Below, in pieces: positions 7,401-40,294 of a DNA stretch of 44,365 nucleotides. The stretch spans positions 1-44,365 of the IMG/VR virus record IMGVR_UViG_3300042539_000724; one strand, 5' to 3'. Position 1 is the stretch's first letter. Each line of letters starts with the position of its first letter. The stretch is from a virus. The position numbers were made by a program, and so were the translations under genes. Under the pieces are notes generated by a model. The model searched no databases. It was given only the letters and a program-made list of their open reading frames with translations, and was not told the origin of the DNA.

Positions 7401-8309
7401 ATGTATGGATTGTGCTGTATTTCATTAAGTCTGCAAGAGCTTGACGAACCAATCAAGTTTCAAACAATGACATTTAAAAGATTCTCCAGCCTTCCTAGGG
7501 AGCAAGCCCTAGAGATACTTGGGGAACGCATATTGAACAATATGTATGCTACCAATAAAATCATACAGTATTGTGCAGAGAACGTATGGACATATAGACT
7601 AAGTAGCGACCTTTTTCCTCTTATTACATATGATGAAGCCAATATAGAGTTAGATGATCTTCCAAACTATGACGATATTCAAGACAGTTTTGATCTTATT
7701 GAGGAAACTATTTCCCGTACTGGGGTTCGCGTTTCTCTTCACCCCTCAGAGTTTAATGTATTAGCATCTACTAATCAGGCAGCAGTTGACAAAACCATCA
7801 CAGAGCTTAATTTCTATTCTTCATTCATGGACAGAATCGGATGTCCAGCAGACTATAATTCCCCAATGAATTTACACGTACATAATAAGAACGGATCATA
7901 TGACGATATTATTGCTAGATTTCTTAACAGTTTTAATCTTCTTGACCCCAATTGTCGTAGTAGGCTGGTTATTGAAAATGACGATAAAATAAACTGCTGG
8001 AGTGTTAAAGAGCTTACTGAAATATTCCACCCAAAGACCAATATCCCCATCACGTTTGATTATTTACATCATGCCTGCCATCCAGATGGCCTATCAGAAC
8101 AAGAGGCTATAAACGCTTGCTATGCAACATGGAAAGGTTTTAAGCCACTATTCCACTATAGCGAAAGCCGCCCAGGTAACAACCCTAGAGCGCACGCTGA
8201 TTATGCACTACAATCATTTAATACTCATGGTCTAGATTTTGATATAGATTTTGAACTAAAAATGAAGGATCATGCTATTAATAAATATGAGGCTACTCTG
8301 GTAAGCTAG
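7401..8309 (+). CDS. UV damage endonuclease, UvdE/UvsE family
   Basis: 302 aa, about the size of bacterial UvsE. UvdE enzymes are TIM-barrel, metal-dependent endonucleases that nick DNA 5' to UV photoproducts and other lesions, an alternative excision-repair entry. Diagnostic blocks seen: YGLCCISLSL at the start (usual LGYCCIS), FPLITYDEA, VRVSLHPSEFNVLAS at about 109-123 with metal-binding His, MNLHVHNKNG, RLVIENDD with the metal-binding Glu/Asp near 190, PITFDYLHHACHP near 220, and FHYSESRPG. The set of His, Glu and Asp ligands appears intact. No ribosome binding site is evident before the ATG. The phage could use it to repair its own genome. Confidence 0.85.
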   Translation: MYGLCCISLSLQELDEPIKFQTMTFKRFSSLPREQALEILGERILNNMYATNKIIQYCAENVWTYRLSSDLFPLITYDEANIELDDLPNYDDIQDSFDLIEETISRTGVRVSLHPSEFNVLASTNQAAVDKTITELNFYSSFMDRIGCPADYNSPMNLHVHNKNGSYDDIIARFLNSFNLLDPNCRSRLVIENDDKINCWSVKELTEIFHPKTNIPITFDYLHHACHPDGLSEQEAINACYATWKGFKPLFHYSESRPGNNPRAHADYALQSFNTHGLDFDIDFELKMKDHAINKYEATLVS

Positions 8310-10002: not shown

Positions 10003-10833
10003 ATGACTCACCATTTTGATTATGTTTGGAAAATGGTTTCTGCTCTCAGAAATACTAGCAGTACAAAAGATAAAGAAGATATTATTAAGATTTACTGTGA
10101 AATTTTTGATAATCCATCAGCGGTATTTGCTAGGAAAATTCTTCTCTATACTTATCATCCACTTTGGCAGTATAATGTCACCAGTGATAATCTGAAAAAG
10201 AAGAATCATCTTGTAGCCAGCAACAATGAGTACAAGAATTTCTTTGATTTGCTTGATGCTCTAAAGAGTCGTAAAATTACTGGCCATGACGCTATTAGTG
10301 CTGTTAATAGTTTTATTGAACACTATTCTGAATACGAAGAACTTATTCATTGCGTAATTGATAAAGACTTGAAAACCCGTGCTGGGGATAAGATTATTAA
10401 TAAGGCTATTCCAGATCATATTCCAGAATTTAGTGTTGCTCTTGCAGATAAATACGAGCCTAAACTGGTAGATTGGGAGGATGGTTGGTATGTTAGCAGA
10501 AAAATTGATGGCTGTGTAGACTATGATACTATTGTTGAATTTGAGGATGGAACTAAGATGTCAATAGGTTATGTTGTCAACAACCAAATTTCTGGCAGCG
10601 TAAAGTCTTACAATCATAAAACTAAAAAAGTGGAATTTAAGCCCATCCTAAACCACATGAAAAATCTTCATGATATTTCTGAAACTCGGCCTACACAGTG
10701 GTACAAAATTACATTAGAAAATGGATCAATTCTTAATATTACTGGTAACGATACAGTATATCTTCCTAAACTTAGGTGTTATCGTCGCGTAGACGAACTA
10801 AATGGTGATGAAGAAGTTTTTTTTGACAATTAA
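10003..10833 (+). CDS. DNA ligase N-terminal half fused to split-intein N fragment
   Basis: 276 aa; AGGAG precedes the start. Residues 1-170 are the N-terminal part of a phage-type ATP-dependent DNA ligase ending exactly in motif I, K167-I-D-G170, where K167 would be the AMP-carrying lysine. At C171 an intein begins: block A CVDYDTIVEFEDG, then a late block-B-like region NGSILNITGNDTVYLP and the closing RRVDELNGDEEVFFDN typical of split-intein N fragments, then a stop. The usual block-B histidine (TxxH) is replaced by Asp in TGND. IntN is 106 residues. It needs the protein at 11764 for trans-splicing to restore KIDG-CRCIG. Family identity is certain from motifs; splicing is inferred. Confidence 0.85.
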   Translation: MTHHFDYVWKMVSALRNTSSTKDKEDIIKIYCEIFDNPSAVFARKILLYTYHPLWQYNVTSDNLKKKNHLVASNNEYKNFFDLLDALKSRKITGHDAISAVNSFIEHYSEYEELIHCVIDKDLKTRAGDKIINKAIPDHIPEFSVALADKYEPKLVDWEDGWYVSRKIDGCVDYDTIVEFEDGTKMSIGYVVNNQISGSVKSYNHKTKKVEFKPILNHMKNLHDISETRPTQWYKITLENGSILNITGNDTVYLPKLRCYRRVDELNGDEEVFFDN

Positions 10834-10888
10834 AATTTCCATCTAATTTTCTCGATAAGGTGTATTAAATATCAACGAGGTAATTAAT

Positions 10889-11800
10889 GTGAAATGTAAA
10901 TATTGTAATAAAACTGGATTAAAAACCAAACAGCAATTATATGGACACCAAGCAAAATGCAAAGAGTATATAAACTATATATGTTGCTATAGAAATAAAA
11001 TTTTAACTAAAAAGTATTTAACTAAAAATATTCTTAAACTTAATCGTTCCTGCTATTCCTTAGAAAGAGAACTAAATGACCCAAAAATACAAGCAAAACA
11101 CATTATTGCAAGATGTAAAGAATTAGGAATTAAGACTCAAACGATTAAAGAGGCTATGAATAATCCTCTTACAAAACGTCAAAGGGAGGAAACAAATCTA
11201 AAAAAATATGGATATAAAAATAATTTTCAATCTTCAACAACCAAAAAAACTTTAGCAAAAAAATATGGTAAAGACATTACTAATGTGTTTCAATTAGAGA
11301 GCGTAAAACAAAAAAGCAAACAAACACTTATTGAAAAATATGGTGTTGAAAATCCTGTGGATTTACCAAGTTATAGACGCAACAACGGAAAGAAATCTAT
11401 ACCTCATAAAAGAATAGAATCTATATTAGATGAATATAATGTCATATATATTAGCGAAAATATAGAAGGTATAAAATTTAATAGATATAATAAAAGCTTA
11501 AAAAGAAAATATAATCCTAGGCCAGATATAATTATACCAACAAGTAAAATAATTATTGAAATTTATGGAGATACATTTCATGCTAATCCTAAAAAATATA
11601 AACCAAATGACATAATAGTAACATGGGCGGGAGAATTGTGTGCTAAAGATATTTGGAAACAAGACAAAATTCGTGTCAACCACTTGAAAAGTTTTGGCTA
11701 TAAGGTATACTGTTTGTGGGCATCGGACATACAGAAAGATATAGGAAAAATTAAGACAAAATTATGCAAACTGTTAAAATTAAAAGTATTACAAAAATAG
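10889..11800 (+). CDS. Free-standing homing endonuclease, Vsr-like EDxHD type
   Basis: 303 aa from a GTG start at 10889 with GAGG upstream. Residues 3-24 form C-x2-C...H-x3-C, a zinc finger. The middle carries repeats of the type TNLKKYGYKNNFQ / TLIEKYGVENPVD that recur in phage mobile endonucleases and are thought to bind DNA. The last 120 residues (KRIESILDEYNVIYISENIEGI...YNPRPDIIIPTSKIIIEIYGDTFHANP...WKQDKIRVNHLKSFGYKVYCLWASD) match the Vsr/EDxHD nuclease fold of the I-Bth0305I group, known from genes fractured by split inteins. It lies between the two ligase halves and overlaps the second by 37 bases. Codons are markedly AT-rich (AAA, ATA, AAT), consistent with separate ancestry. Confidence 0.8.
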   Translation: MKCKYCNKTGLKTKQQLYGHQAKCKEYINYICCYRNKILTKKYLTKNILKLNRSCYSLERELNDPKIQAKHIIARCKELGIKTQTIKEAMNNPLTKRQREETNLKKYGYKNNFQSSTTKKTLAKKYGKDITNVFQLESVKQKSKQTLIEKYGVENPVDLPSYRRNNGKKSIPHKRIESILDEYNVIYISENIEGIKFNRYNKSLKRKYNPRPDIIIPTSKIIIEIYGDTFHANPKKYKPNDIIVTWAGELCAKDIWKQDKIRVNHLKSFGYKVYCLWASDIQKDIGKIKTKLCKLLKLKVLQK

Positions 11801-12681
11801 ATAGTAGAGATAAATACGAACTAGAAGTTGCAGATAATGCTAATTTTTTCGCTAATGGTATACTCAAACATAATTGTAGATGTATTGGCGTTGTTGATGA
11901 TCGTGGCGATACTACTTTTTACTCCCGTGAAGGAAAGAAATTTACTACTCTTGGCGTTGTTAGCGGTGGTATTAAGAATCTTAATGTTGTCAATGTAGTG
12001 TTTGATGGTGAAATTTGCTTAGTCGATGATGAGGGTAATGAAGATTTTCAAGGAATTATGAAGCAAATTAAAAAGAAGGATCATATTATTTCTAATCCTT
12101 CATACAAAATTTTTGACATGATTTCGCATGAAGAATTTTATTCTAAGGTTGGAGCAAAAAATCGCCCGTATTCTGTTAGATTAGCCAATCTTGTAGAAGT
12201 ATTGAAAAATAATGAGTGTCCATGTCTTAGCGTTTTAAATCAAGATAAAGTTAATCACGATCAGCATTTTAATGAATGGATTTCTGTTTCATCCTCATTA
12301 AAGTGGGAGGGGCTGATGCTACGTGCCGATACTCCATATAAAGGAAAGCGCAGCAAAGATCTTTTAAAGTATAAAAGTTTTAATGATGATGAATATGAGG
12401 TAAAATCTGTGAAGTTTGGCATATTTAGGTATATTAAGGACGGCCAAGAGTGCGAAGAAGAAATGCTCTCTAATGTTACTATTCAACACAAGGGATATAA
12501 TGTAGATGTTGGAAGTGGTTTTACTATAGCGGAACGTCAGCATTTTTATAGAAACCCTAATGATATTATCGGTAAAATAATTACTGTTCAATATTTTGAA
12601 GAAACTAAAAATCAAGACGGCGGAATTAGTCTACGATTTCCAACCCTAAAATATATTCATGGAGCTAAAAGATCTATATGA
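11764..12681 (+). CDS. Split-intein C fragment fused to DNA ligase C-terminal half
   Basis: 305 aa. Residues 1-37 are an intein C fragment: YELEVADNANFFANGILKHN ends in the catalytic His-Asn, and the next residue is Cys38, the required +1 nucleophile. From 38 on it is ligase: CRCIGVVDDRG completes motif I after KIDG, FDGEI 80-84 is motif III, YKIFDMI 114-120 motif IIIa, EGLMLR 182-187 motif IV and KDLLKYK 198-204 motif V, followed by an OB-fold-like tail. Joined exteins give about 438 residues, normal for phage nick-joining ligases. Its start lies within the endonuclease gene. Stop overlaps the next ATG. Confidence 0.85.
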   Translation: MQTVKIKSITKIDSRDKYELEVADNANFFANGILKHNCRCIGVVDDRGDTTFYSREGKKFTTLGVVSGGIKNLNVVNVVFDGEICLVDDEGNEDFQGIMKQIKKKDHIISNPSYKIFDMISHEEFYSKVGAKNRPYSVRLANLVEVLKNNECPCLSVLNQDKVNHDQHFNEWISVSSSLKWEGLMLRADTPYKGKRSKDLLKYKSFNDDEYEVKSVKFGIFRYIKDGQECEEEMLSNVTIQHKGYNVDVGSGFTIAERQHFYRNPNDIIGKIITVQYFEETKNQDGGISLRFPTLKYIHGAKRSI

Positions 12682-35963: not shown

Positions 35964-38120
35964 ATGAAATTGCACAGCGGTACAAACGTTATTGAGAAGT
36001 CTGGCACATTTGAAGAGTCTAAGTATAGCATCGAAGCATCGTCTAAGGCTTTCTTCATTCTGTCTGACGGGCTTTATTCCAACAAAATTCTTGCTGTTGT
36101 TCGTGAACTTTCGACCAACGCTTATGATTCCCATGTGGATGCTGGTAAGCGTGAGGTTCCGTTTGACGTTCATCTTCCCACACAACTCAATCCTGTTTTC
36201 TTTATTCGTGATTACGGCACTAGCATGAATCACGACAATTGTATGCAACTGTATACTACGTATTTCCGTAGTACTCGTAACAATAGCAACGATGCTGTTG
36301 GTTGTCTTGGTCTTGGAAGCAAGGCTCCGTTTGCCTACGCTGATAGTTTTACCGTGGAAGCGTACCTTGATGGTAAGCAGCGTGTTTATAATGCATATAA
36401 GAATGAAGACGGTAGCCCCGTATTCTCTCTTATGCACGAAACCGATACCAATGAACCCAACGGTATCAAGGTTTCTATTCAAGTGAATTCGCACGACGTT
36501 AATCGTTTTCACGTTGAAGCTAAGAAAGTCTATGAATTTTTTACCGTGAGGCCCAATTTTGTTGGCGAGAAGATCGCCTTTAATAAGATTGATAAGGTGC
36601 TTGCTGGTGATGGTTGGTATTTTGATGACAATGCTGACAACAACTTGATTATCATGGGTCAAATTGCTTACCCCGTTGATCATTTCCAAATCATGGGCGA
36701 CGGCGATAATAAAGAATCGCGATTCATCCAGTATTCTGATGGTCTTCGCATCTTTGTAAATATTGGCGATGTCGATATTACTCCTAGTCGTGAATCCTTG
36801 TCCTATAGCAAGGATACTAAGATTAATATCAAGAGTATCGTTAATCGTATTACTTCCGAAATTGCATCTAAGATTGAGGATCAGATTAAGAGCCAGCCTT
36901 CGCTTTATAAGGCTCGTATCAAGTATGTTCAGATTAGCGATCAGTGTTCTTCTATCAAGAATGCTATTGAATCGCTTCAGAAGTCTATTACTTGGAACGG
37001 CCAGAAGCTTTTCGACAATATTGTTAATGAGAGCATCAATGTTAAGGACAAGCTTTCACTCACATTCCTCAGTAAGTCTTCTTATCGTAAGAAGATCAAT
37101 AGCTCTAAAGATGTTGAGTTCGTCAACTTTACTGGCGATATGAAGGTATTTGTTGATGATTTGACTCGCGGCGGTCTGAGTCGCATCAAGCAATTCATGC
37201 GTGAAAATCAAAAATCATATGGTGATGAACAAAAGTGCTATGTGTACAAACTTAAGGACGGTGAGGCTGTTGACAACAACGGTTTGTATGATATACTTGG
37301 CGGAGCGACCAAAGATGATGTTGTGCTGACTTCTAGTTTGCCCAAGATCACCTACGATAGAAGCAGTTCTGGTTCTAGTGACGGTCTTCCGCCCATTCAT
37401 ATCCAAGTCTTTAATGAAGAAACTGGCCGATTTGAAGAGTGCAATATGAGTGTAAAGTATGAGAATGCGTACTATTTCACTGAATCTAAGGGTAACATCA
37501 CCATTGGATACAAGGGTATGGATACGAGCTATATCGTAAATGCTCTTGCTTATATGCACAAGCATTATCCAGACGAGGTTGATGGCATGACGTTCTATGC
37601 CGTTAAACCTTCTGTGATTAAGAATCGCAAGCTTGTAGAGCGTTCCAACTGGAATGATGCTGTTAGTGTTATGCGTACAGTTTTCAATAAGGCTGTTGCA
37701 GACCACAAGCAAGATATTATCGACTGTAATGTGCGGTTTGGCTTGTCGGCTCATAGAAATGAAAAGTTTGCAAACATCTTTAGTGCTACAAAAACAGACA
37801 ATGAAGCAAAGAAGGTTGTCGCTGAGTATAATGAGTATGAGAAGCGTATAACTTCTATGCGACATGAAATGGAACTTGTTCGTGCTATGAGTAGTATTAT
37901 CCCGAATTGTGATAGCGTTGACTTGTCTGCAACAAAAATTGATAACACAAAATTCTCTAAGAGATTTGATAACGCTGTACAGAAGTATCCTATGCTCAAG
38001 GTAATTGCTAATATGGGATACTATGGCAACGTTAGTCAAAATGATGTTAAGATTGTGGCCGACTACATTGACACGATTGAGTCTGCTGAAAATATGTCCA
38101 ATATTCTGAGTTGTATGTGA
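35964..38120 (+). CDS. rIIA-like protein (718 aa)
   Basis: AAGGAG precedes the ATG. The N-terminal domain is a GHKL ATPase: N-box ELSTNAYDS 48-56, DYGTSM 83-88 (G1) and GLGSKAPFAY 116-125 (G2). Length equals T4 rIIA (725 aa). In T4, rIIA and rIIB are membrane-associated and protect against the lambda RexAB exclusion system. GC-richer codons than in neighbours imply strong expression. The rIIB-like gene follows 19 bases later. Confidence 0.85.
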   Translation: MKLHSGTNVIEKSGTFEESKYSIEASSKAFFILSDGLYSNKILAVVRELSTNAYDSHVDAGKREVPFDVHLPTQLNPVFFIRDYGTSMNHDNCMQLYTTYFRSTRNNSNDAVGCLGLGSKAPFAYADSFTVEAYLDGKQRVYNAYKNEDGSPVFSLMHETDTNEPNGIKVSIQVNSHDVNRFHVEAKKVYEFFTVRPNFVGEKIAFNKIDKVLAGDGWYFDDNADNNLIIMGQIAYPVDHFQIMGDGDNKESRFIQYSDGLRIFVNIGDVDITPSRESLSYSKDTKINIKSIVNRITSEIASKIEDQIKSQPSLYKARIKYVQISDQCSSIKNAIESLQKSITWNGQKLFDNIVNESINVKDKLSLTFLSKSSYRKKINSSKDVEFVNFTGDMKVFVDDLTRGGLSRIKQFMRENQKSYGDEQKCYVYKLKDGEAVDNNGLYDILGGATKDDVVLTSSLPKITYDRSSSGSSDGLPPIHIQVFNEETGRFEECNMSVKYENAYYFTESKGNITIGYKGMDTSYIVNALAYMHKHYPDEVDGMTFYAVKPSVIKNRKLVERSNWNDAVSVMRTVFNKAVADHKQDIIDCNVRFGLSAHRNEKFANIFSATKTDNEAKKVVAEYNEYEKRITSMRHEMELVRAMSSIIPNCDSVDLSATKIDNTKFSKRFDNAVQKYPMLKVIANMGYYGNVSQNDVKIVADYIDTIESAENMSNILSCM

Positions 38121-38139
38121 ATTAACTAGGAGAAATATT

Positions 38140-39027
38140 ATGTCTACAAAGTATATTATTGCAAATGATGGTAATGTTACTGCCGTTGTGAGTGGTCAGA
38201 CATATTGCTTTGGCAAGTCTCACCCAAATTATAATAAGTTGGTTAATCATCTTAAGTCTAATAATGTTGAGCATTTTGAGGCTTGCTATGATATTGTTTC
38301 GCATATAAATGCATATTGCGAGGGTTATGTTAATTGTTCCGATGGTTCGCTGAGTTGGGATGGTATCAAGATGCCCGATATGTTTACCGGTACAATTCTT
38401 GATATGGTCAAGCAAGGTTTCCCGTTTGAACCGATGTTGAATTTCCTCGACAATCTTAGTCAGAATCCCTCTGATCACGCTATTGTGGAGCTTTTTGATT
38501 TCATGGAAAATAAGAACATGCCCATTACTTATGATGGTTGTTTCTTGGCATATAAAGCTGTGCGTAATGATTATAAGGATATTTATTCTGGCAAGTTTGA
38601 TAATTCTGTTGGTAATGTGTGCGAAGTTCCTCGTAATCAGGTAGATAGTAATCGTGACAATGGGTGCGGTAAAGGTCTACATGTTGGGGCTATTGACTAT
38701 GCAAAGAATTATGGCGGCATTAATCTAGATGAATACGGTGACGGTAATGATGGTGGTAATCATCTTATGATTTGCAAGGTTAATCCGCGAGATGTTGTTA
38801 GCGTTCCTACAGATCATAAGTTTCAAAAGCTTCGTACTTGTAGATATGAAGTAGTTTCCAAGTTTGACTCTGTTTTTGATAAGGTTATTCATATGACCGA
38901 AAATGATAAGTCTTATGTTGCTACCAAGAAGCGTAATCGTCAATGGGTTGTAGAAGTTACTGCTAAGATGGATAAAATCAATGAGGTTCTATCTAAGCGT
39001 CTTAATCGTGAAGTTGTTAGTGTTTGA
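38140..39027 (+). CDS. rIIB-like protein (295 aa)
   Basis: AGGAGAAATATT precedes the ATG. Diagnostic rIIB blocks: FLDNLSQNPSDHAIVELFDFMENKNMPITYDGCFLAYKAVRNDYKDIYSGKFDNSVGNVCEVPRNQVD region near 115-170, GLHVGAIDYA near 185, and CKVNPRDVVSVPTDHKFQKLRTCRYEV near 210-235. Function parallels T4 rIIB, the partner of rIIA in resisting host exclusion systems. Confidence 0.85.
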   Translation: MSTKYIIANDGNVTAVVSGQTYCFGKSHPNYNKLVNHLKSNNVEHFEACYDIVSHINAYCEGYVNCSDGSLSWDGIKMPDMFTGTILDMVKQGFPFEPMLNFLDNLSQNPSDHAIVELFDFMENKNMPITYDGCFLAYKAVRNDYKDIYSGKFDNSVGNVCEVPRNQVDSNRDNGCGKGLHVGAIDYAKNYGGINLDEYGDGNDGGNHLMICKVNPRDVVSVPTDHKFQKLRTCRYEVVSKFDSVFDKVIHMTENDKSYVATKKRNRQWVVEVTAKMDKINEVLSKRLNREVVSV

Positions 39028-39181: not shown

Positions 39182-40294
39182 ATGAAAATTATTAATGATA
39201 CTAAATTAGATTTTGATGATGTCTTACTCGTTCCACAGAGATCCCAGGCCGCATCAAGGGTCAGTGTGTTGGTCGATAGACACTTCACTTTTTATCATTC
39301 TTCTAGACAGTGGAGCGGAGTACCAATTTGTAGTTCAAATATGGATACTACTGGCACATTTGATATGGGTAGAGCATTAAGTAAATTGAATATGATTACA
39401 TGCTTACATAAGCACTATGATGAAAGTCAATATAATCATATTAATTATGATATTAATAATATATGGTATAGCATGGGCATACAAGAAAAGGAAATCGACA
39501 AACTTTCTAGAATCTGTGAAAGACTTGGTAGCTGTCCAAATATTTGTATAGACGTTGCTAATGGTTATACAGATAATTTTGTACATTTTTGTAAGCTGGT
39601 CAGGCAGCATTGTGGACATAATCCTATAATTATGGCTGGTAATGTATGTACTCCAGAGATGGTTCAAGAGTTGATTTTGCATGGTGGCGTGGATATAGTT
39701 AAAGTTGGCATTGGTCCCGGTTCAGCCTGCACAACAAGATTAAAAACCGGAGTTGGATATCCTCAACTATCAGCAATCGCAGAGTGTTCACACGCGGCTC
39801 ACGGTTTGAAAAACGGAGACAGAAGATTGGGATTAATTTGTGCTGATGGGGGATGTAGAACGCCAGCTGATGTTGTAAAAGCATTCGCTGCTAACGCTGA
39901 CTTTGTAATGCTCGGCGGCATGTTAGCTGGAACAGAACAGTGCGAAGGAGAGTGGAAGTATGAATATTTAACCAAACCGTGTAATGCTGGACAACAATTT
40001 TGGCAACCGATACAACCCGGATATGATACAGAACGTAGAAAAGTATCTCTTACATTTTATGGTATGAGTTCTCATAAAGCACAAGAAAAATATGGCGGCA
40101 TAAAACAATATAGATCTAGCGAAGGTAGAGTAGTAACCGTACCATTTAAGGGTGATGTTATAGACGTTATGAATGATATACTTGGAGGCATTAGAAGTGC
40201 ATGTGCGTATGTTGGTTCAACGTGCTTAAAAGATTTACCTAAATGCGCAGAATTTATTAAAGTTAATAGAATACACTTTGATAGGAATGTATGA
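39182..40294 (+). CDS. GMP reductase (GuaC/IMPDH family)
   Basis: 370 aa, slightly longer than GuaC of E. coli (347). [12 protein letters not shown] at the start, then the flexible-loop motif G176-I-G-P-G-S-A-C183-T-T with catalytic cysteine, [44 protein letters not shown] and the late MSS...YGG...YRSSEGR...GG(I/L)RSACAYVG are all GuaC features; IMPDH's CBS domains are absent. It reduces GMP to IMP with NADPH, feeding adenine nucleotide supply. AGGAGATAATT upstream. ATGA overlap with the next gene. Confidence 0.9.

Follow-up and report, generated by a model that had tools for sequence, protein, structure and literature searches.

A phage DNA ligase gene fractured after motif I by a predicted split intein and a free-standing EDxHD-type endonuclease gene

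The gene for an ATP-dependent DNA ligase was found to be broken in two in the virus record IMGVR_UViG_3300042539_000724, of which the whole 44,365-base stretch, possibly a genome fragment, was analyzed (hereafter, the window). The break lies immediately after the KIDG of motif I and is bordered by the two parts of a split intein, with the gene of a Vsr/EDxHD-type homing endonuclease (HEN) standing free between them. It is very probable that a mobile cassette, consisting of an N-terminal intein fragment (IntN) at the end of the first half, the HEN gene, and a C-terminal intein fragment (IntC) at the start of the second, invaded a phage ligase gene right after KxDG, and that the two halves trans-splice into a 438-amino-acid ligase. 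By its gene arrangement, the locus is a fractured-gene split-intein locus, for which trans-splicing is predicted.

The locus comprises three open reading frames (ORFs) on the plus strand. ORF1 (10003 to 10833) encodes 276 residues, the first 170 of which (10003 to 10512) form the N-extein, the N-terminal part of the ligase, ending with KIDG170; Cys171 follows directly as the first residue of a 106-residue IntN (10513 to 10833), after which the frame is closed by a stop codon. A spacer (10834 to 10888) leads to ORF2 (10889 to 11800), the HEN gene, which has a GTG start and encodes 303 residues. ORF3 (11764 to 12681; 305 residues) starts at an ATG of its own before the HEN gene has ended, which creates an overlap of 37 nucleotides that is also found in relatives. 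Its first 37 residues (11764 to 11874) constitute IntC, which ends in KHN and precedes Cys38-Arg-Cys, the beginning of a 268-residue C-extein (11875 to 12681) comprising the remaining nucleotidyltransferase domain and the OB domain. Joining of the two exteins gives a product of exactly 438 residues. The coordinates, lengths, and residues given in an earlier note on this DNA are confirmed, as is the fractured-gene arrangement it described, with an enzyme in two ORFs, IntN and IntC at the break, and a free-standing endonuclease gene in between.

Both exteins were assigned to one ligase family. Residues 14 to 171 of ORF1 matched positions 97 to 250 of the PHROG ligase profile phrog_114 (E value, 3.3e-25), and residues 38 to 302 of ORF3 matched positions 250 to 501 (E value, 2.6e-47). 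Because the two parts abut exactly at profile position 250, the insertion was clean, with no ligase sequence lost. Along its length the N-extein shared 69 to 88% identity with uninterrupted ligases, and the C-extein matched the Pfam families DNA_ligase_A_M (PF01068) and DNA_ligase_OB_2 (PF14743). Residues 67 to 435 of the joined protein aligned with the solved ATP-dependent DNA ligase 6rau (E value, 7e-21), and the ligase motifs KIDGCR, FDGE, EGLMLR, and LLKYK were all present. By its nucleotidyltransferase motifs and OB domain, the joined product is an ATP-dependent DNA ligase of phrog_114, for which ligation activity is predicted. Since the adenylated lysine lies on the first half and the later motifs lie on the second, neither half should ligate alone. 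A second, contiguous ligase gene, which the earlier note had named as counting against its proposal, was found neither in the window record, which as a possible fragment provides weak evidence on this point, nor in the 223-kb contig L002 that carries the same split gene. The contig of another carrier, L115, does contain a further ligase-like gene, and a back-up ligase may therefore exist in at least one phage.

The sequences bordering the break were recognized as intein on both sides. The NCBI intein N-terminal model TIGR01445 began exactly at Cys171 (E value, 4.7e-5; 24.3 bits against a cut-off of 24.5), TIGR01443 matched residues 18 to 38 of ORF3 (21.9 bits; cut-off, 15.6), and IntN and IntC joined together scored 37.9 bits with Pfam Intein_splicing (cut-off, 35.8), a model that also matched IntC. 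When the joined intein profile was compared with solved split inteins, both halves aligned, with NrdJ-1 as the best match (E value, 1.4e-6) followed by gp41-1 (8.4e-5). In the window and five further phage contigs carrying the same cassette, Cys1 and Cys+1 (Cys171 and Cys38 in the window) were invariant (6/6 loci), and the penultimate His and terminal Asn of block G occurred as KHN, again in all six. On the basis of these nucleophiles and junctions the element is filed as a class 1 intein, with the stated exception that the block B histidine (TxxH) expected of that class is replaced by Asp. The profile matches on both halves and the exact junction, together with the empty alleles and the selection described below, bear out the split intein that had been proposed. 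It is very improbable that the insert is instead a self-splicing intron, or an HEN gene inserted by itself between junk tails; EDxHD endonucleases do occur in introns and alone, but here intein splicing profiles match on either side of the insert, the terminal residues are the correct ones, and the uninterrupted relatives lack these tails.

Searching of viral contigs returned 80 ligases, 77 of them continuous, which provided the intein-free relatives that the earlier note had suggested looking for. Its expectation that such alleles would read KIDGCRC was not borne out, however. The residue after KxDG was Ala in 75 of the 77 empty alleles and Val and Ile in one each, whereas Cys was present in every occupied allele and in no empty one. 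A +1 Cys native to the host gene, considered as a candidate origin, was ruled out by these 77 alleles. As empty alleles never carry Cys at this position, the +1 Cys travels with the element and remains as a scar in motif I (KxDGxR). Scanning for further inteins by DNA pattern at the HN-CRC junction yielded the known loci only.

The cassette recurred in the contigs L002, L003, L008, L084/L091, and L115, with the free-standing endonuclease gene lying between the halves in the window and in L002, L003, L008, L084, and L115. In the four contigs compared, the HEN protein was 64 to 83% identical to that of the window. Nei-Gojobori ratios of nonsynonymous to synonymous substitution (dN/dS) were ∼0 to 0.37 for the N-terminal ligase part (LigN), IntN, HEN, IntC, and the C-terminal ligase part (LigC) wherever dS was unsaturated, and all five segments are thus under purifying selection. 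Because the arrangement recurs in five other contigs and is maintained at such ratios, it does not represent an assembly error. A frameshift in the IntN of locus L123 and a contiguous intein in L144 could be cited for the view that the window gene is really a contiguous, cis-splicing one whose split arose in sequencing or assembly. For the window this view is in effect refuted and retains hardly any probability, given that six separate contigs share the stop codon, the spacer, the HEN's own start, and the IntC ATG overlapping the HEN end.

In a tree of 78 ligases, four occupied alleles among them, the occupied alleles were scattered, requiring four changes (bootstrap range, 4 to 4), at least three of which were forced by well-supported branches; their exact placement is unsure because their end branches are mostly long. 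Between L115 and the other loci, IntN and HEN were 60 to 69% identical, compared with 47 to 58% for the ligase parts. Taken with the scattered occupancy, this contrast argues for horizontal spread of the element to one exact site.

The ORF2 protein matched DUF7487, DUF559, and, weakly, Vsr, as well as phrog_22677 (E value, 5.4e-18), and showed a Cys/His-rich N terminus, KYG repeats, and a C-terminal nuclease domain. E177, D213, H231, and a downstream Asp (254 or 259) did not vary among the four closest HENs and were largely retained in distant ones, and the RPD of ORF2 aligned to Vsr in the profile alignment. The top Foldseek match in the PDB was the catalytic domain of I-Bth0305I (3r3p), with a probability of 0.97, a template-modeling score of 0.63 by target length, and an E value of 0.07, obtained with a model of low confidence (mean predicted local distance difference test [pLDDT], 59). 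The conserved E...D...H...D residues, the weak Vsr matches, and this fold match agree with the EDxHD type assigned previously. The N-terminal half of the HEN was 36 to 65% identical among the compared DNA-ligase loci versus 21 to 31% to the RNA-ligase loci described below, as expected if this half sets the target. Comparison of five spacers upstream of the HEN start (10834 to 10888 in the window) revealed a stretch, TTCCATC.AATTTTCT, largely common to those of L002, L003, L008, and L115, and a second stretch, GTGTATTAAATA, kept in three loci. The conserved stretch is possibly a promoter or other control element imported with the endonuclease.

The replacement of TxxH by TGND in block B, which the earlier note had pointed out, is real and fixed: TGND was found in 6/6 loci of the window clade and TGNH in nearly all relatives, including the inteins of L147, L148, and L151, which interrupt ligases of this family at the identical position. 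By the simplest reading, the Asp is thus derived and fixed and does not reflect recent decay. The block B His is very widely conserved and essential in many inteins; a small natural subset lacks it, and bulky residues at position -1 can compensate for its absence (PMC6333167). Several observations weigh against the proposed splicing cassette. In the window clade the His-to-Asp change is combined with Gly at -1, so that the known bulky -1 compensation is absent; some other feature must compensate, or splicing may proceed slowly. For ORF1 alone, structure prediction from the single sequence reached a pLDDT of only 33. The AlphaFold model of the HEN was of low confidence (pLDDT 59, with the nuclease region mostly below 60), and its Foldseek match had an E value of 0.07.

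The same block B Asp with Gly at -1 would fit an intein that is dead or nearly so, with the ligase either a pseudogene or a noncovalent two-piece enzyme like the HEN-split phage ribonucleotide reductase; an instance of a nucleotide reductase made two-piece by HEN insertion is cited in PMC10448857. This explanation is improbable. Purifying selection acts on both intein fragments and on both ligase parts, and no locus departs from Cys1, His-Asn, or Cys+1. The window and L002 encode the same IntC protein, even though their LigC parts differ by approximately one-third. A two-piece enzyme, moreover, would gain nothing but a burden from the IntN and IntC tails.

For the favored trans-splicing cassette, the course of events would be as follows. 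The two ligase proteins would be made from neighboring genes, and, following established intein chemistry, IntN and IntC would associate. After an N-S shift at Cys1 and transesterification onto Cys+1, cyclization of Asn and a final S-N shift would join KIDG to CRC in the 438-residue ligase, leaving as the only trace a motif I Cys at the position natively held by Ala. With the adenylated lysine on one half and the later motifs on the other, this protein should be able to ligate only once spliced. By analogy with homing, the endonuclease would be expected to cut the empty KxDG site of a co-infecting phage, and repair would accordingly copy the whole cassette, including the Cys codon.

Searches with the nuclease domain and broader IntN profiles uncovered a wider lineage. 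An intein lay exactly after KxDG in 33 contigs, some of them near-duplicates, comprising 9 with phrog_114-type DNA ligases, 20 with T4-Rnl1-type RNA ligases, 3 with a second, smaller type of DNA ligase (L116, L154, and L157), and 1 with a PHA02142-type ligase (L119), for which no IntC was present within the DNA stretch examined. The host families of the tested loci were confirmed with Pfam; in L102, for example, the joined halves scored 63 bits with RNA_lig_T4_1, whereas the N half by itself scored 32 and the C half gave no score. At loci with the second half present, the DNA ligases had Cys at +1 and the Rnl1-type RNA ligases had Ser. In empty RNA-ligase relatives, the same place read KCDG followed by Thr, or KLDG followed by Thr or Ser. 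T4-Rnl1-type RNA ligases split at KxDG^S (the caret marks the insertion point), their halves flanking a Vsr-type endonuclease gene, were seen in L102 (2699 to 5237), L122 (1623 to 4098), L124 (2713 to 5582), and L130 (3162 to 6040). Endonuclease status varied, with a full HEN at some loci, a gap too short for one in L131 and L138, and none in L116, L157, and L220. In L144 (3195 to 4751), an RNA ligase carried a contiguous mini-intein at KLDG^S that fell within a clade of split ones; it is either ancestral, having never been split, or the result of re-fusion.

A tree of 46 inteins separated the ligase inteins from the DE^CH inteins of UvsW helicases with support of 100/99, and the RNA-ligase from the DNA-ligase inteins with support of 100/99; the DNA-ligase groups were poorly resolved among themselves. 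Taken together, these data make it fairly likely that one phage split-intein lineage has specialized on the KxDG of covalent nucleotidyltransferases, occupying an identical codon boundary in two types of DNA ligase, in T4-Rnl1-type RNA ligases, and in one PHA02142-type RNA ligase, and has crossed between them. Such a lineage would bring the +1 Cys where DNA ligases lack a nucleophile and have Ser at RNA ligases, with stages of a homing cycle visible, and in one clade block B His would have changed to Asp without a bulky -1 residue. In bacterial and archaeal genome contigs, only three distant inteins were found, none at KxDG. Phage KLEP7 has an "intein-containing RNA ligase," but this was rejected as a same-site case, its intein being contiguous and located at GEWAG^C.

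Related elements were also observed at other sites. Inteins of a sister lineage split many UvsW-type helicases at DE^CH, in motif II (L125, L159, and most of L161 to L207), some with unrelated ORFs between the halves. L101 and L120 carried related inteins in RNA ligases at a different position, which lies upstream of motif I, and L104 to L107 carried a helicase gene with two inteins, each seemingly split, one of them with a Vsr-type endonuclease gene between its fragments. In L119 (2452 to 3303) and L151 (2931 to 3815), IntN-bearing ligase N halves had no IntC partner inside the stretch examined; their C halves may be encoded further away.

Phage host enzymes broken by split-intein fragments, with a free-standing Vsr-related homing endonuclease gene in between, were reportedly described by Dassa et al. 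in 2009 (NAR 37:2560), for enzymes of DNA synthesis and repair of eight types. The kind of fractured gene is therefore known; the host here is a DNA ligase, broken at motif I. A search of the open literature, which did not extend to that 2009 list of host genes, returned no paper describing a split intein in either a DNA or an RNA ligase. The NrdJ-1 and gp41-1 split inteins (PDB 8ubs and 6qaz) share the typical split site, with an IntN of ∼100 residues and an IntC of ∼37, but sit in other host genes, and NrdJ-1 retains the block B His (TPDH) where the window has Asp. The AceL NrdHF intein, also of fractured-gene organization on a phage-like contig with an HEN between the halves, is of class 3, with Ala1 and a GIY-YIG endonuclease, unlike the Cys1 and EDxHD of the window (PMC7891396). 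I-Bth0305I, the best fold match to the nuclease domain and similar in its kind of catalytic residues, is discussed among group I intron homing endonucleases (PMC3943268), whereas the window HEN stands free between intein halves and has a Cys/His-rich N terminus and KYG repeats. An intein in an ATP-dependent DNA ligase is itself published, from a haloarchaeon; in the available part of that source the case is archaeal, from one genome, and without sign of a split (PMC4071816). The suggestion of a further host gene and site for such elements consequently stands as far as the literature could be checked, except that DNA ligase as an intein host has precedent.

Elsewhere in the window, adjacent rIIA and rIIB homologues (35964 to 39027) point to a T4-like phage. 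A UvdE-type UV endonuclease gene was located at 7401 to 8309, and the gene for IMP dehydrogenase, a known fractured-gene host, was present as a single ORF at 39182 to 40294. Directly downstream of the split ligase in L002 (6915 to 7595) and L008 (6919 to 7557), HNH endonuclease-like ORFs were found on the minus strand.

The lineage offers a source of new natural split inteins for protein ligation, in both +1 Cys and +1 Ser versions, and a natural block B Asp clade in which the N-S acyl shift can be studied. The matched empty and occupied alleles of DNA and RNA ligases, which number in the tens, permit direct testing of how inteins settle on active-site motifs and pass from one paralogous gene to another. 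For the phages themselves, with the adenylated lysine and the other catalytic motifs on separate polypeptides, ligase activity would be tied to protein trans-splicing.
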